Virus record (IMG/VR): IMGVR_UViG_3300048686_000618
Span: 1 to 40,720 of that record
Length of the DNA stretch: 40,720 bases
Strand: one strand, 5' to 3'
Source: a virus
The notes under the pieces are model-generated. The model was not told the origin of the DNA. It did not search any database and was given only the letters and a program-made list of their open reading frames with translations. The position numbers and the translations under genes were made by a program. This document shows, in pieces, positions 10,601 to 34,407 of this stretch (its first letter is position 1; every line of letters begins with the position of its first letter).

Positions 10601-10758
10601 CAATCACAAAATATATCATCTTAAAATCACCTAGCGTTGACACCCTAGTTTTAGAGGTCAACGCTCTTTTGCGTTTAGGTTGGCAACCGCAGGGTGGAGT
10701 TGCTAAAAATTCGGAGTTATTTGTACAAGCAATGGTTCAATATAAAGAGGTTAAATGA
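10564..10758 (+). CDS. DUF1737-like small protein with unclear start
   Basis: The recognisable part begins just after the tRNA (KYIILKSPSVDTLVLEVNAL) and continues with LLRLGWQPQGGVAKNSE and VQAMVQYKEVK. This is the DUF1737 pattern of a short beta-alpha-beta protein ending in a QAMV-like strand. The only canonical start is TTG at 10564, inside the anticodon arm of tRNA-Cys. An ATC at 10603 is the first codon after the tRNA that could yield a natural N-terminus. The tRNA may have displaced the original start. The stop overlaps the pstS ATG (ATGA). Confidence 0.6.
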   Translation: MSNRGSNPTPHSTITKYIILKSPSVDTLVLEVNALLRLGWQPQGGVAKNSELFVQAMVQYKEVK

Positions 10759-11765
10759 AACGATTACTATCACTCATCACAGGACTAGGTATCAGCTTAG
10801 CCGCAAGTGCACAAACTATTACAGGAGCAGGAGCTACATTTCCCTATCCAATATATGCAAAGTGGGCAGAAGCCTACAACAAACAAACTGGAGTACAGCT
10901 AAACTATCAAAGTATTGGTAGTAGCGGCGGTATTCGTCAGATCAATAGTAAAACAGTAGCCTTTGGTGCTACAGATGCTCCGGTTAAGGGTGAAGATTTA
11001 GATAAACTGCAGCAGGTTCAATTTCCTGCTATTATTGGCGGCACTGTACCAATTGTAAATCTTGAAGAATTTAAGCCCAATGAATTAAAGATTACAGGCC
11101 CAGTACTTGCTGAAGTGTTTATGGGAACGATAAGTAAGTGGAATGATGATCGACTTGTTAAACTTAATCCTGGAAAGACTCTACCTAACACCAACATTAC
11201 AGTTGTTCATAGGGCTGATGGAAGTGGTACTACTTTTAATTTTACTGACTATCTTGCTAGTGTCAGCCCAGATTGGGCTGCAAAGGTTGGTAGAGGAGCA
11301 GCAGTAAAGTGGCCTGCAGCCAGCAGTGTAGGTGGTAAAGGCAATGAAGGTGTAGCAGCTAATGTTGCCCGAGTAAAGGGTAGTATAGGTTATGTAGAGT
11401 ATGCCTATGTTAAAAAGAATGGTTTAACCAACCTACAACTACAAAATAAAGCAGGTAACTGGATTAGTCCAGATGATGCAAACTTTGCAGCTGCCGCAGT
11501 AGCGGCCGATTGGTTTAGTGTGCCTGGTATGGGTTTGAGCATTGTTAATCAACCACATAAGGATGCTTGGCCAATTACTACCGCAAGTTTTATAGTTATG
11601 TATAAAGATCCACAAGATAAAAAGGCTAGTCAAGAAGTCGTCAAGTTTTTTGACTGGAGCTTTAAGAATGGCAAGAAATTAAGCGAAGAACTCGACTACG
11701 TACACCTACCAGACAAACTGCAAGCTGATATTCGTAGTAAGGTATGGTCACAGATTAAACACTAG
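10755..11765 (+). CDS. pstS: PstS phosphate-binding protein
   Basis: A 336-aa periplasmic binding protein. It has a signal peptide (MKRLLSLITGLGISLAASA, cleaved after about residue 19), then TITGAGATFPYPIYAKWAE, IGSSGGIRQ, FGATDAP (about residues 71-77), VVHRADGSGTTFNFTDYL and GSIGYVEYAYVKK, all standard PstS phosphate-pocket motifs. The full family length is present. In cells PstS delivers phosphate to PstCAB in the inner membrane. No pstC, pstA or pstB is in this window, so the phage protein would work with host permease to raise phosphate supply. It resembles betaproteobacterial PstS. Confidence 0.95.
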   Translation: MKRLLSLITGLGISLAASAQTITGAGATFPYPIYAKWAEAYNKQTGVQLNYQSIGSSGGIRQINSKTVAFGATDAPVKGEDLDKLQQVQFPAIIGGTVPIVNLEEFKPNELKITGPVLAEVFMGTISKWNDDRLVKLNPGKTLPNTNITVVHRADGSGTTFNFTDYLASVSPDWAAKVGRGAAVKWPAASSVGGKGNEGVAANVARVKGSIGYVEYAYVKKNGLTNLQLQNKAGNWISPDDANFAAAAVAADWFSVPGMGLSIVNQPHKDAWPITTASFIVMYKDPQDKKASQEVVKFFDWSFKNGKKLSEELDYVHLPDKLQADIRSKVWSQIKH

Positions 11766-28935: not shown

Positions 28936-29247
28936 ATGAAATATACTAAAGAACTTACGGACAAAATAGTAAACGACTACCAAGCCAATATTGCTGTTAG
29001 CAAAATTGCCGAGGAGCTTAGGGTGCCAGAGCGCAGCATAGTTGCCAAGCTGAGTAGCATGGGCATCTACCAAAAGCAACGCTACCTCAATAAGCGCGGT
29101 GAGGTGCCGCGTAAAAAGTTTGAGATGATTGAAAGCTTAGCCACACTCTTAGGGGTGCCTAGCGATCAGCTAGAAAGTTTAGAAAAAGTCAACAAAAATG
29201 TACTTAAATTGCTTGAAACCAGGTTGAGTGACCCTAAACCGCAATAA
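28936..29247 (+). CDS. HTH-type DNA-binding protein (paralog 2 of 4)
   Basis: A 103-aa relative of the protein at 12378: KELTDKIVNDYQANIAVSKI, then AEELRVPERSIVAKLSSMGI and VPSDQLESLEKVNKNVLKLL. The recognition helix differs (VPERSI versus GKSTRSI), so its target site probably differs. A TTTAGGGTCG box overlaps the region just upstream (28917-28926) and another lies in its 3' end (29229-29238), which suggests self-regulation. It ends at a strong terminator. Confidence 0.75.
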   Translation: MKYTKELTDKIVNDYQANIAVSKIAEELRVPERSIVAKLSSMGIYQKQRYLNKRGEVPRKKFEMIESLATLLGVPSDQLESLEKVNKNVLKLLETRLSDPKPQ

Positions 29248-29288: not shown

Positions 29289-29333
29289 CCCACACTATTG
29301 GGTTTGCTCTGATTTAGGGTCAGAAAAATTCTC

Positions 29334-29363
29334 TTGACAGGGTAGTTGATCAGCCACTATAAT
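29334..29363 (+). promoter_or_regulatory. Promoter with TTTAGGGTCA box, module 1
   Basis: TTGACA at 29334-29339, 18-bp spacer, TATAAT at 29358-29363, then TTGGCGC. A TTTAGGGTCA box begins 21 bp upstream of the -35. No gene follows; the transcript (about 29370 on) would be a short RNA containing GCAAG/CTTGC and CTAAA/TTTAG hairpins. Confidence 0.75.
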
Positions 29364-29517
29364 ATTGGCGCAAGAGCACTAAATTTTTTAGCTTGATTGC
29401 TTGCCCACTGGCGCAACACCACAATTTCTGACCCTAAACTGTACTAGTTTGGGTGCCGGCCAAGAAATTTTGTGCTGTTGGTGTGGTTTGCTGCGGTTTA
29501 GGGTCAAAAAAATTTAC

Positions 29518-29547
29518 TTGACGGTGATGTTGATTTGCCGCTATAAT
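29518..29547 (+). promoter_or_regulatory. Promoter with TTTAGGGTCA box, module 2
   Basis: TTGACG at 29518-29523, 18-bp spacer, TATAAT at 29542-29547, then TTGGCGC. Same design as module 1, with the TTTAGGGTCA box again 21 bp before the -35. Confidence 0.75.
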
Positions 29548-29754
29548 GTTGGCGCAAGACCAATAAATTTTTGCACTTGATAGTGTTTGCACTGGCGCAG
29601 AATAACCACTAAATATTTTGGGGAGTTTTTCCACTGGCGCCGGTGGGTGCACCCACCATCATCATTTATAGAATTTATAGCGACATCGTGCTAGGTTATA
29701 TAATTTAGTGCGGTACGGTTATGGATTATATAATTTGTAGCGGCTTAGGGTCAA

Positions 29755-29828
29755 CCGACCAGCGGTCGATACGGGCCGACCAGCGGCGGCATTTTCGCTT
29801 GACACGCGGGCCAAAATTATAGTATAAT
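29755..29828 (+). promoter_or_regulatory. Composite promoter element, copy 1
   Basis: CCGACCAGCGGT at 29755-29766 and CCGACCAGCGGC at 29776-29787 (21 bp apart), TTGACA at 29799-29804, 18-bp spacer, TATAAT at 29823-29828 inside a palindrome with arms CCAAAATTATA and TATAATTTTGG. Confidence 0.82.
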
Positions 29829-29902
29829 TTTGGCGCAATATCGCTACAAATTTTATAACAGTATAATAACCATAACTTGACCCAATTACACCCAAAACCG
29901 GC

Positions 29903-29976
29903 CTGACCAGCGGCAGCCAGCGGCAGATGAGTGGCAGCAAAAACGCTTGACACGCGTGCAATTTTAATGATAAAAT
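29903..29976 (+). promoter_or_regulatory. Composite promoter element, copy 2
   Basis: CTGACCAGCGGC at 29903-29914, a degenerate second box at 29924-29935, TTGACA at 29947-29952, 18-bp spacer, TAAAAT at 29971-29976, then TTGGCGCC. Arms CAATTTTA and TAAAATTG flank the -10. Confidence 0.72.
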
Positions 29977-30027
29977 TGGCGCCAGGTCGCTATAAATTAT
30001 ATAATTTATAACCGTTATGGCGAAAAT

Positions 30028-30055
30028 AACGGCCCGCTTTGGGCCGTTATGGTTT
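30028..30055. terminator. Bidirectional terminator
   Basis: AACGGCCC pairs with GGGCCGTT around GCTTT. The plus strand is followed by GGTTTTT, the minus strand by ATTTTCG. It ends the leftward 30063 gene and the rightward copy-2 promoter RNA. Confidence 0.8.
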
Positions 30056-30062
30056 TTAGAAC

Positions 30063-30371
30063 CTAGTCAACTAGGTCATACTCAACAAGTGCATCCACAA
30101 TGTGGACGGGCAACTTTACAGTTTCCATATCACCCCAGCGCTTGAGTGCGACAAGCTCACCGACCTTACGGTCAAATTTATCGTGACTGGCACACCAAGC
30201 AAAGCTCACGTTATAAAATTTAGTATTATCACGGCCGATGGTAGGTTCACAAACCATGGTCATGCCAGGAAAAAGAGTATTAGTCGGTTTTTTAGAATGA
30301 ACAAAACCGCCCATGTCACGCAGGACGCCTTTAAGCTCTTTACGCAGGTTTTTTTCTTGAGGGGTAAGCAT
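30063..30371 (-). CDS. Hypothetical protein, 102 aa
   Basis: Leftward gene downstream of HTH paralog 3. The product (MLTPQEKNLRKELKGVLRDM...) has a basic helical start and a beta-rich centre with MTMVCEPTIGRDNTKFYNVS. No family recognised. Separated from the HTH gene by a GGGGC-TTCG-GCCCC hairpin that could attenuate its expression. Confidence 0.65.
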   Translation of the reverse strand: MLTPQEKNLRKELKGVLRDMGGFVHSKKPTNTLFPGMTMVCEPTIGRDNTKFYNVSFAWCASHDKFDRKVGELVALKRWGDMETVKLPVHIVDALVEYDLVD

Positions 30372-30405
30372 GGTATAACTCCTAGAGTGTTAAAGATTTT
30401 ATAGC

Positions 30406-30419
30406 GGGGCCGAAGCCCC
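30406..30419 (-). promoter_or_regulatory. UUCG-type hairpin between HTH paralog 3 and next gene
   Basis: On the minus strand GGGGC and GCCCC close a TTCG tetraloop, followed by an A/T-rich but not T-only tract. A comparable hairpin lies at 33981-34000 after paralog 4, so it looks like a conserved attenuation or stability element. Confidence 0.6.
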
Positions 30420-30425
30420 TAAGAT

Positions 30426-30752
30426 TTATAACGGCTTGCTGTTAGCAAGTGCGTCGAAAATCGCCTTGAGAGCGGATTTGTTCGCCTTGGTAAGCGATTC
30501 AATGTCATTTTCTGACAGGCGAAGAATCGCGCCGATAGCATCGGCCGTTACATCTTTTTTAACAGGCTTTTCGCCAGTTTTCGAGACGTACTGCTTTGCA
30601 ACGTAAACTTTCTCGCGCGAAAGTTTCGCTACAACAGAACGAACGGTTTTACCCATAGCCGAAGCAATTGCTTCGACCGCGACACCTGCCTGATAATCTG
30701 CTATAATTTTAGCAGTCTGCTCGGCGGTGTAATTAACGGCTTTTTCTGCCAT
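30426..30752 (-). CDS. HTH-type DNA-binding protein (paralog 3 of 4)
   Basis: A 108-aa protein closest to paralog 4 at 34004: YTAEQTAKIIADYQAGVAVE, then AIASAMGKTVRSVVAKLSRE and VYVAKQY, and a C-terminal SENDIESLTKANKSALKAIF. First gene of its leftward unit and expressed from the palindrome-type promoter at 30810-30858. Being the first gene it may control its own promoter and others. Confidence 0.78.
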   Translation of the reverse strand: MAEKAVNYTAEQTAKIIADYQAGVAVEAIASAMGKTVRSVVAKLSREKVYVAKQYVSKTGEKPVKKDVTADAIGAILRLSENDIESLTKANKSALKAIFDALANSKPL

Positions 30753-30809
30753 GATTACAACTCCTAGAACTGTCTTGGGCTTGACCCTATGTCTCCCGCA
30801 ACAAAATCA

Positions 30810-30858
30810 ATTATACACGGGTTTCAGTGGCCAATTGTCGTCCAGATGACAATTGGCC
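30810..30858 (-). promoter_or_regulatory. Leftward palindrome-type promoter for HTH paralog 3
   Basis: The minus-strand -10 is TATAAT (30815-30810). At the -35 position, after a 17-bp spacer, is ACAATT, the arm of a palindrome GGCCAATTGTC/GACAATTGGCC (30829-30858). The lack of TTGACA and the palindrome position suggest an activator-dependent promoter. Confidence 0.7.
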
Positions 30859-30892
30859 TACCATCTGTCAGGTGGATCAGCGGCAAAATCAC

Positions 30893-30967
30893 CCGACCAG
30901 CGGCAGACAGCATCCGACGAACGGTAGCCCCTGGGGCTTGACACGCGCAACAAAATTATGATATAAT
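30893..30967 (+). promoter_or_regulatory. Composite promoter element, copy 3
   Basis: CCGACCAGCGGC at 30893-30904, CCGACGAACGGT at 30914-30925 (21 bp apart), TTGACA at 30938-30943, 18-bp spacer, TATAAT at 30962-30967 inside a perfect 30-bp A/T palindrome (30952-30981), then GGCGCC. Confidence 0.82.
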
Positions 30968-31029
30968 TATATCATAATTTTGGCGCCATCGCTATAAATT
31001 CTATAATTGGTAGCGATATAGTAAAAAAT

Positions 31030-31050
31030 ATAGCGGCTTTGCGCCGCTAT
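31030..31050. terminator. Bidirectional terminator
   Basis: ATAGCGGC pairs with GCCGCTAT around TTTGC. The minus strand is followed by ATTTTTTAC, the plus strand by ACGTTTT. It separates the leftward SprT gene from the rightward copy-3 promoter. Confidence 0.82.
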
Positions 31051-31055
31051 ACGTT

Positions 31056-32463: not shown

Positions 32464-32537
32464 CCGACCAGCGGTTGCTACCAGCCGACGAACGGTCGCT
32501 CCAGGCCTTGACACGGGCAAAAATTATATGATATAAT
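32464..32537 (+). promoter_or_regulatory. Composite promoter element, copy 4
   Basis: CCGACCAGCGGT at 32464-32475, CCGACGAACGGT at 32485-32496 (21 bp apart), TTGACA at 32508-32513, 18-bp spacer, TATAAT at 32532-32537 in a palindrome with arms AAAAATTATAT and ATATAATTTTT, then GGCGCC. Confidence 0.82.
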
Positions 32538-32546
32538 TTTTGGCGC

Positions 32547-32579
32547 CACCGATATAAATTTTATATCGGTGTGGTTTTT
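32547..32579 (+). terminator. Promoter-proximal terminator of copy 4
   Basis: CACCGATATA pairs with TATATCGGTG, followed by TGGTTTTT. It lies only a few bases after the expected transcription start, so the RNA would be about 35 nt. Confidence 0.7.
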
Positions 32580-32593
32580 ATAACGTGGAACAG

Positions 32594-32609
32594 TGTTCCA
32601 CGTGGAACC
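32594..32609. other. parS-like site 2
   Basis: TGTTCCACGTGGAACC matches known bacterial centromere sites bound by ParB. An overlapping 21-bp inverted repeat with arms ACGTGGAACA and TGTTCCACGT (32583-32603) extends it. The 3' edge overlaps the stop codon of the leftward 32609 gene. Confidence 0.72.
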
Positions 32610-32965
32610 TATGCGTGCGTGGTTTCCCAAGCGGCAAGCGCACGCTTTGCCAACATTTGATAGAACGTAGCAGATTTTAGATCGCCGCGCTCTATGTCTG
32701 CGCTAGCCCAACTTGCAAAACGCTCTGCATCGTTCAACAATTGACGACGATTTAACTCGCGCCAAAAAATAGAACGTTCGTCTTCGACAGGGCTAAGGTC
32801 AAACTCAGCAGGCAGGCTATGAAACTCAGTTAGTAAATCGTTATACATTCTAGTAACCCAACCTAGATCGTTCCAATCGCTAACCGTTCCAAAATCTGGA
32901 TCAAAACCGTACATTTCGTTATAAAGTTCAACCAGTTTATCTTGCATAACCATTAAATTTTCCAT
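32609..32965 (-). CDS. Hypothetical protein, 118 aa
   Basis: The start at 32965 has an AAGGAC site on the minus strand and follows the HAD gene. An acidic helical protein (MENLMVMQDKLVELYNEMYG, later FWRELNRRQLLNDAERFASW and MLAKRALAAWE). No family recognised. Its stop overlaps the parS-like site. Confidence 0.68.
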   Translation of the reverse strand: MENLMVMQDKLVELYNEMYGFDPDFGTVSDWNDLGWVTRMYNDLLTEFHSLPAEFDLSPVEDERSIFWRELNRRQLLNDAERFASWASADIERGDLKSATFYQMLAKRALAAWETTHA

Positions 32966-32966
32966 A

Positions 32967-33443
32967 TCAATGTCCTTGTTTGCTTGGAATGTAAACACCA
33001 CGAATGTTAAAGTAATCGCATACCGCTTTAAGATATGCAACATTATCTTCATAAAATACAGCGTCATTAAAATGATAACCTAAATCGCTATACAATTTGA
33101 AAATCCGTTTTAGCCCTTCGATTTTGAGAGTACCGCCAGAACGGTTATCATTTTCATTACGGCTAACGATATGATCGGGAGTTCCTAGTCTGCTATAAAT
33201 AAATGCACGATCAGGGTTCCGCAAAATACGGGCAGTAGCAATAACGACAATACAGTTGGGATCATCGAGATCGTTTTTATATTGTTCTGCCAATGGTAAC
33301 AAATTGTCATCAAGTGCCCGATACTCGTTAGCACGCCAGTAATCGAGATCAATGCGCTCAATACCGTTATCAACAATGGTACGATACCTATGCATTGAGC
33401 AAACAATTGTGCCGTCCATGTCATAGATTGCTATCCTTTTCAT
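32967..33443 (-). CDS. HAD-superfamily phosphatase
   Basis: A 158-aa protein with HAD motif I as IYDMDGTIVCSMHR (about residues 5-18, DxD nucleophile), motif II around VVIATAR (about 66-72), a Lys in IEGLKRIFKLY and motif IV in VFYEDNVAYLKAV (about 129-141). It resembles small nucleotidases and the phosphatase half of polynucleotide-kinase-type repair enzymes. The likely job is hydrolysis of a nucleotide or nucleic-acid-end phosphate. The start MKRIAIYD is chosen for its AAAGGA site. Confidence 0.8.
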   Translation of the reverse strand: MKRIAIYDMDGTIVCSMHRYRTIVDNGIERIDLDYWRANEYRALDDNLLPLAEQYKNDLDDPNCIVVIATARILRNPDRAFIYSRLGTPDHIVSRNENDNRSGGTLKIEGLKRIFKLYSDLGYHFNDAVFYEDNVAYLKAVCDYFNIRGVYIPSKQGH

Positions 33444-33473
33444 AACCATGTCCTTTGCATTAACCATGTGCTA

Positions 33474-33555: not shown

Positions 33556-33629
33556 CCGACCAACGGCAGTCTACGCCCGACAAACGGCGGTGGCAGGGCT
33601 TGACACGGCTGCAAATTATATGCTATAAT
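33556..33629 (+). promoter_or_regulatory. Composite promoter element, copy 5
   Basis: CCGACCAACGGC at 33556-33567, CCGACAAACGGC at 33577-33588 (21 bp apart), TTGACA at 33600-33605, 18-bp spacer, TATAAT at 33624-33629 with arms CAAATTATA and TATAATTTG, then GGCGCC. Confidence 0.82.
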
Positions 33630-33639
33630 TTGGCGCCAT

Positions 33640-33669
33640 CGCTATAAAAGTTATAGCGGTATATTTTTT
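33640..33669 (+). terminator. Promoter-proximal terminator of copy 5
   Basis: CGCTATAA pairs with TTATAGCG around AAG, followed by TTTTTT. The resulting RNA would be only about 35 nt. Confidence 0.72.
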
Positions 33670-33675
33670 GTATGA

Positions 33676-33701
33676 GCTACTGTTTCACGTGAAACAGTAG
33701 C
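33676..33701. other. parS-like site 1, perfect
   Basis: The core TGTTTCACGTGAAACA (33681-33696) is the textbook bacterial parS sequence, and the palindrome continues perfectly to 26 bp. It lies in a non-coding gap just after the copy-5 terminator. There is no T-run on either strand directly adjoining it, so it is not simply a terminator. Confidence 0.82.
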
Positions 33702-34003: not shown

Positions 34004-34330
34004 CTAGTTGGCAGAGTTACGGATAAAAGCCTCAATTGCACGCAGTGCGCTCTTGTTAGCTTTCGTTAACGATTCTATATCGTTCTCTGAGAGCTTGAGA
34101 GCAGCACCGATGAAATCAGCCGTTACATCTTTTTTAACGGGAGTCTCGCCCGTTTTGGTTTTATATTCTTTAGCGATATAAACCTTTTCACGGCTGAGCT
34201 TCGCTACAATTGAGCGAACAGTCCTGCCCATAGTCTGGGCAATCTGCTCGACCGTAACACCGGCTTGGTATTGTTCCACAATCTGAGCGGTCTGCTCAGG
34301 GCTATAATTAGGGGCTTTGGCTGTTGCCAT
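34004..34330 (-). CDS. HTH-type DNA-binding protein (paralog 4 of 4)
   Basis: A 108-aa protein very similar to paralog 3: YSPEQTAQIVEQYQAGVTVE, then QIAQTMGRTVRSIVAKLSRE and VYIAKEY, and the shared C-terminus SENDIESLTKANKSALRAI. The start at 34330 is set by AGGAG eight bases upstream. It has a palindrome-type promoter like paralog 3, so the two genes may have duplicated with their control regions. Confidence 0.78.
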   Translation of the reverse strand: MATAKAPNYSPEQTAQIVEQYQAGVTVEQIAQTMGRTVRSIVAKLSREKVYIAKEYKTKTGETPVKKDVTADFIGAALKLSENDIESLTKANKSALRAIEAFIRNSAN

Positions 34331-34363
34331 TTCAGCTACTCCTGTTGTGTTGAAAGAAACTCT

Positions 34364-34407
34364 AGTATAGGCCAATTTTAGCGAAAGATTGTCGTCCTAG
34401 CGACAAT
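34364..34407 (-). promoter_or_regulatory. Leftward palindrome-type promoter for HTH paralog 4
   Basis: The minus -10 is TATACT (34369-34364), spacer 17 bp. The -35 position ACAATC is an arm of the palindrome ATTGTCG-N6-CGACAAT (34388-34407). Confidence 0.72.

Follow-up and report, generated by a model that had tools for sequence, protein, structure and literature searches.

Host-type parS sites in the promoter-hairpin modules of a T5-like phage clade, possible loading sites for host ParB

Two exact copies of a parS site of the host chromosomal type are found in the phage DNA studied here, a 40,720-base IMG/VR virus record (IMGVR_UViG_3300048686_000618) that was analysed whole and is called the window below. 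Judged by its letters the feature is parS, and it is real, conserved and unusual. The reading towards which we lean is that the sequence would serve in this phage as a loading site for the chromosomal ParB of the host. If this is true, a conserved host-type parS in lytic phages without parAB of their own would be a means to use, block or mimic the centromere of the host.

The window encodes TerS, TerL, a portal protein and 14 tRNAs. Its TerL is at most 49% identical to those of Vibrio T5-like phages, and TerS and TerL are followed by a small gene that Vibrio phage VspSw_1 also has and then by portal, which is the T5-type arrangement. By terminase type and neighbouring gene order, the phage is assigned to the T5-like phages (Demerecviridae). 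Among named phages, no DNA relative was found by BLAST with either the window from 20000 to 40720 or, separately, one module (described below) as the query, and Rfam gave no match. Minus-strand genes fill about 30.0 to 34.4 kb of the window. A gene for a PstS-like phosphate-binding protein is located at 10755-11765.

A preliminary description of this DNA had reported a second parS-like site 1.1 kb from the first, overlapping a second palindrome and representing a natural parS variant, and each of these points holds (Table 1). The two exact sites are separated by 1,087 bp, and a third exact site was not found in the window. TGTTCCACGTGGAACC fits the parS class as a 16-bp inverted repeat of the TGTTNCACGTGNAACA-type consensus, and, in the accessible text of two reports, parS1 and parS4 of Pseudomonas aeruginosa have the same letters and are bound by ParB in vivo (PMC5098823, PMC4368675). 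The last base of the TGTTCCACGTGGAACC site is common to the stop codon of a minus-strand ORF (32609-33067). The second palindrome is composed of the 5' half of TGTTCCACGTGGAACC and an upstream half-site, which shows 3 mismatches if 32577-32592 is taken as a complete site. An extra half-site of this kind is present in 22 of the 77 distinct parS modules that we collected, and, since two complete overlapping parS sites 17 bp apart occur in some relatives (L003, L220 and L229), the palindrome is taken to be a second, worn parS site. The clustering of sites had also been taken to argue for a real centromere rather than chance. Chance is indeed ruled out as the origin of the two sites: 14-bp cores are expected in the window at 4.6e-4, the probability of two or more is about 1e-7, and, when up to 3 mismatches are allowed, the window has 8 matches, a number reached by 0 of 100 shuffles.

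Table 1. Coordinates of the parS sites, the promoter-hairpin modules and the gene between the sites, in window positions
Feature	Position	Strand	Remark
parS-like site TGTTCCACGTGGAACC	32594-32609	found on +	0 mismatches to TGTTYCACGTGRAACM
Twin parS site TGTTTCACGTGAAACA	33681-33696		within perfect 26-bp palindrome 33676-33701
Second palindrome ACGTGGAAC-AGT-GTTCCACGT	32583-32603		parS half-sites tail to tail
Two CCGN5CGG repeats, module 1	32464-32474, 32485-32495	+	21 bp apart
Sigma-70 consensus promoter TTGACA-18-TATAAT, module 1	32508-32537	+	-10 within inverted repeat
GGCGC, module 1	32542-32546	+	adjoins expected transcription start
First hairpin, module 1	32547-32571	+	terminator-like, then T-run
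Two CCGN5CGG repeats, module 2	33556-33566, 33577-33587	+	21 bp apart
Sigma-70 consensus promoter TTGACA-18-TATAAT, module 2	33600-33629	+	
First hairpin, module 2	33638-33660	+	terminator-like, then T-run
Three further promoter modules without parS site	29799, 29947, 30938; span 29799-31051	+	
dmp-like gene between both sites	32967-33467	-	tblastn and PHROG

Both sites had been said to occupy the same place in their module, after a composite promoter and its short terminator, and this is what the annotation gives: in both modules the CCGN5CGG pair precedes a consensus promoter whose -10 is within an inverted repeat, and GGCGC, a hairpin with a T-run and parS come after it in that order. The two first hairpins have the stem-loop and T-run of an intrinsic terminator, and the predicted RNA folds of 32543-32579 and 33634-33669 reach -14.1 kcal/mol (z -4.2) and -9.8 kcal/mol (z -2.8), respectively. 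The parS palindromes, with no T-run behind them, are absent from the terminator list on both strands. Both module promoters, perfect matches to the consensus and very strong as judged from their letters, are directed along the plus strand and oppose the flanking minus-strand genes. The CCGN5CGG repeats of module 1, placed 44 and 23 bp upstream of the -35 as they also are in relatives from the closest clade, are candidate activator or operator sites; GGCGC is an element of the module definition used for our searches. Among the modules without parS, the one at 30938 has its -10 region covered by a 32-bp perfect palindrome (CAAAATTATGATATAATTATATCATAATTTTG, 30951-30982). Two 115-bp direct repeats at 29301-29599, 78% alike, carry consensus-like promoters and GGCGC with no inverted repeat over the -10, and represent a second module type which recurs in relatives. 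Three small genes (28936-29247, 30426-30752 and 34004-34375) all match PHROG 1725 'DNA binding protein', and two of them also match a D5-like regulator; they are candidate module regulators.

Conservation was followed in relatives fetched without reference to parS. Only the loci fetched by TerL, the mismatch count over 128 modules and the loci fetched by the neighbouring gene are free of selection by the parS pattern, and counts in relatives are inflated throughout by close kinship. The TerL-fetched set holds the best 80 of 593 relatives (793,517 bases). Within these best 80 of 593, the module is present in 42 loci and parS in 12 of those 42, and all 23 parS cores stand directly behind a module. 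Together with the window, the set yields 128 distinct modules, in which the best mismatch to the core GTTYCACGTGRAAC is 0 in 24, 1 in three (all of them GTTTCATGTGAAAC), 2-3 in none and at least 4 in 101; when the letters of the palindrome were shuffled, the mean number of modules was 0.09 at 0 mismatches and likewise 0.09 at 1. The preliminary description had singled out relatives that keep the hairpin and lose the CACGTG core as the pattern that would tell against parS. Among 35 loci retrieved with the gene that separates the two sites, many of which are close relatives and not independent, the exact core is kept in 25 of 26 modules 3' of the gene and in 31 of 35 modules 5' of it. The misses are L268, whose 5' module differs from the core at one base, and four modules of L289 (both sides), L290 and L291, distant relatives of about 66% identity in which the promoter and first hairpin are kept and a different repeat replaces parS.

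Relatives were also gathered by pattern. A loose collection pattern returned mostly unrelated sequence, with 7 module matches among the new loci, and a tighter one was used instead. In IMG/VR the latter returned 56 stretches, 54 of them with the full module, the others being L219, which is cut at the contig end, and L222, Listeria phage P100, which has no module; the set contains 93 module-site pairs, 74 of them distinct, the window included. In bacterial genomes the tight pattern had 6 matches, none with the -35 of the module. Over all loci collected there are 77 distinct parS modules. The promoter spacer is 18 bp in every one, and the linkers from GGCGC to the core come in 61 distinct forms. 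The four cores seen are the only ones that the search pattern allows, a circular result in a set partly gathered by pattern, and 23 of the 77 modules have an asymmetric core. GGCGC and parS lie 30-60 bp apart without fixed phase, a spread that argues against an activator site of the classical, fixed-phase kind. Single sites gave 35 distinct flank pairs, and in 18 of these the outer T..A which completes the 16-mer is complementary, against a mean of 13.3 after shuffling (p 0.0065); at flank positions 2-5 beyond the core pairing is at chance (36 seen, p 0.61; 35 distinct flank pairs). The first hairpin varies freely among modules while the parS core stays fixed.

The bimodal mismatches and the lack of extra flank symmetry indicate, in relatives that are not independent, that the site is conserved as a sequence and not merely as a palindrome; a conservation of the hairpin only is ruled out by the same two results. 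The conservation pattern is that of a protein-binding site of parS size. These data bear directly on the possibility that the palindromes act as RNA, as a terminator or 3'-end stabiliser of minus-strand mRNAs or as part of a short plus-strand RNA. The minus-strand folds are stable (32580-32611, -12.4, z -3.1; 33676-33701, -15.5, z -7.0) and the first site comes directly after a stop codon, but no T-run follows the palindrome on either strand, 23 of the 77 cores are asymmetric, flank symmetry is at the chance level, and conservation is of sequence rather than pairing, with 0 modules at 2-3 mismatches. We regard an RNA role as quite improbable.

In 101 of the 128 modules the slot after the promoter holds another repeat or none, so the module does not depend on parS. 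Relatives L022-L080 have ATACTTTNGTTT/AAACNAAAGTAT-type repeats there in 40 of the 128 modules; AAGGGTNAACCCTT fills it in 7 of the 128 and a AGTGAGCGCTCAC-type palindrome, which we take to be lac-operator-like, in 4. This occupation by other repeats, those of the ATACTTTNGTTT type included, weakens the case for a function in the module itself that ParB alone could serve. It is possible, although we think it unlikely, that a DNA-binding protein encoded by the phage uses the site as its operator, sharing or having copied the parS sequence, and regulates the module promoters. The fixed slot behind promoters, the other palindromes that take the same place elsewhere and the small DNA-binding proteins encoded by the three PHROG 1725 genes would all suit such an operator. 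However, a ParB-type domain was not found in the window, the distance from GGCGC has no fixed phase, and the tolerance pattern, which is exactly that of parS (Y/R, outer T..A), would have to be a coincidence. The five module copies in the window, with more in relatives, could also be imagined as recombining promoter-hairpin-parS cassettes, similar to the promoter early stem-loops (PeSLs), through which parS spread without a function of its own. The patchiness of parS among the module-bearing terminase loci (12 of 42, within the best 80 of 593 relatives) is in keeping with a hitchhiker of this kind. Yet the linkers are diverse, and in the sets independent of parS the core, where present, is exact or one mismatch off, which argues against a passive passenger, since this should decay; such an origin seems to us very doubtful.

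The preferred reading, that host ParB loads at the site, draws on what the phage itself encodes. ParB_N (PF02195) had 0 matches in the window and in nine relatives, the tenth record in that search of relatives being Listeria phage P100. HTH_ParB (PF17762) and, at E 0.1, ParA (PF13614) had 0 matches in ten records (the window and nine relatives), all of which are classed as linear and are possibly fragments, and a ParB encoded in missing sequence, or one too divergent for Pfam, would escape this type of search. Terminase is present in all ten. The centromere half of the clustering claim is therefore not supported if it means a partition system complete in itself: cognate parA and parB were not found in these records, and the same holds for a ParABS system or plasmid centromere belonging to the phage. 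The phage might instead pass through a carrier or plasmid state in which a ParABS of its own acts; the 1.1-kb spacing of the two sites and the existence of phage-plasmids with ParABS, such as cyanophage Mic1 in the accessible part of its description (PMC7156551), could be cited for this. Against it stand the lack of ParA and ParB matches in the window and nine relatives, a 102-kb contig included, and the T5-like terminase, and it appears to us highly improbable. The related 102-kb contig (G002; loci L334 and L335), of IMG/VR class linear, has module copies near both ends, and its end 1,500 bases have no common 31-mer and one common 21-mer; it may be an almost whole genome broken inside a module cluster. 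An exact parS with no detectable phage ParB or ParA suggests use of the host's own ParB, and we infer that this protein is the best remaining candidate for the reader of the site.

Under the proposal that we favour, host ParB, a CTP-dependent clamp, would load at the phage parS and spread, and a nucleoprotein patch would be formed between the minus-strand gene cassettes. Most likely, this patch would silence or insulate the neighbouring promoters of small minus-strand cassettes early in infection. Such local control is modelled on P. aeruginosa, in which ParB at native level represses genes beside the intergenic parS3 and parS4, according to the accessible text of the report (PMC5521831). On this reading, the site would probably affect local transcription or the handling of phage DNA, in a region where a homologue of a T5 pre-early gene is encoded.

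The patch may also form on early-entering DNA, as the neighbourhood (the dmp-like gene, with terminase a few kb away) resembles the T5 pre-early terminal region. By tblastn, the dmp-like gene matches T5 dmp at 29% over 85 aa (E 1e-7) and VspSw_1 dmp at 34% over 88 aa (E 5e-7), and it also matches PHROG 415 polynucleotide kinase (E 1e-10). In T5, dmp, which encodes a deoxynucleoside-5'-monophosphatase, lies in the terminal repeat, that is, in the first-step-transfer DNA that enters the cell first (annotation of AY543070), and the dmp of VspSw_1 immediately precedes the terminase genes. In having a dmp-like gene and cassettes of small genes close to terminase, the region is like the T5 terminal repeat with its injection stop signal. 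In contrast to T5, the dmp-like gene and terL of the window are on opposite strands, a search for homologues of A1 and A2 in the window and the tested loci gave no match, and T5 has neither parS nor the module. With A1 and A2 not found, the dmp-like gene and the terminase neighbourhood are the only pointers to a place in the first-transfer DNA, and the location of both sites on first-entering DNA is a lead only. A host-type parS so placed could allow host ParB clamps, with ParA or SMC, to load on incoming phage DNA and assist in drawing it in, holding it or positioning it, or could turn the chromosome segregation machinery to phage use, acting as a centromere without partition genes of its own. 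We offer this extension tentatively and consider it unlikely.

The distribution of parS in other phages sets limits on these ideas. Neither parS nor the module was found in 11 named T5-like phages (T5, seven Vibrio phages, and Proteus, Klebsiella and Salmonella phages), and the feature thus belongs to this environmental clade and not to T5-like phages generally. Vibrio has ParB, and the absence of parS from all seven Vibrio T5-like phages means that a ParB-bearing host is not by itself enough to bring parS; with the site absent from 4 of 4 enterobacterial and 7 of 7 Vibrio phages, the contrast with ParB-lacking hosts is not decisive. Outside the T5-like phages, Pseudomonas phage phiPsa315 (L322, L325, L328) has a parS core in its direct terminal repeat, and hence at both genome ends. 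In Listeria phage A511 (L323, L326) a core overlaps the gp51 start, after a sequence resembling a ribosome-binding site, and Listeria phage P100 has one core. Lactobacillus phage Lpa804 (142.6 kb, Herelleviridae; L324, L327, L329, L330) has three GTTTCACGTGAAAC sites inside a 7-kb stretch, and promoter-like sequence shortly precedes two of these. phiPsa315, A511 and Lpa804 are unrelated and had no ParB_N match; reached via BLAST or by pattern, they carry no information on frequency, and they hint that the use of host-type parS may be more general.

To our knowledge, the phage parS sites described so far come from temperate phage-plasmids that themselves encode ParA and ParB, and no prior report of host-type parS in virulent phages without ParB was found in the open-licence literature of PubMed Central. 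Among the known systems, the PeSLs of T4-like phages are defined by a promoter that drives the adjacent downstream gene; here the promoters at 32508 and 33600 point along the plus strand and the neighbouring genes lie on the minus strand. As far as the accessible description of PeSLs allows the comparison, the modules are like them in joining a composite promoter to a stem-loop, in accompanying small variable genes and in their many copies, and unlike them in that the promoter opposes the flanking genes, parS is added, and the phage is T5-like and not T4-like (PMC4503421). With the ParABS systems of the phage-plasmids P1, N15 and Mic1, as the accessible part of the source presents them, our phage has in common a centromere-like palindrome on a phage genome; those phages encode ParA and ParB, whereas a search of ten records gave no match to either protein and the letters of our site are of the host chromosomal type (PMC7156551). 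Finally, the sites differ from the parS of P. aeruginosa, a comparator species, in that they are carried by a phage without detectable parA or parB and are set inside a promoter-hairpin module; by the accessible text of the two reports, they resemble chromosomal parS1-parS4 of that species in the 16 bp of TGTTCCACGTGGAACC, identical to parS1/parS4, and in their clustering (PMC5098823, PMC4368675).
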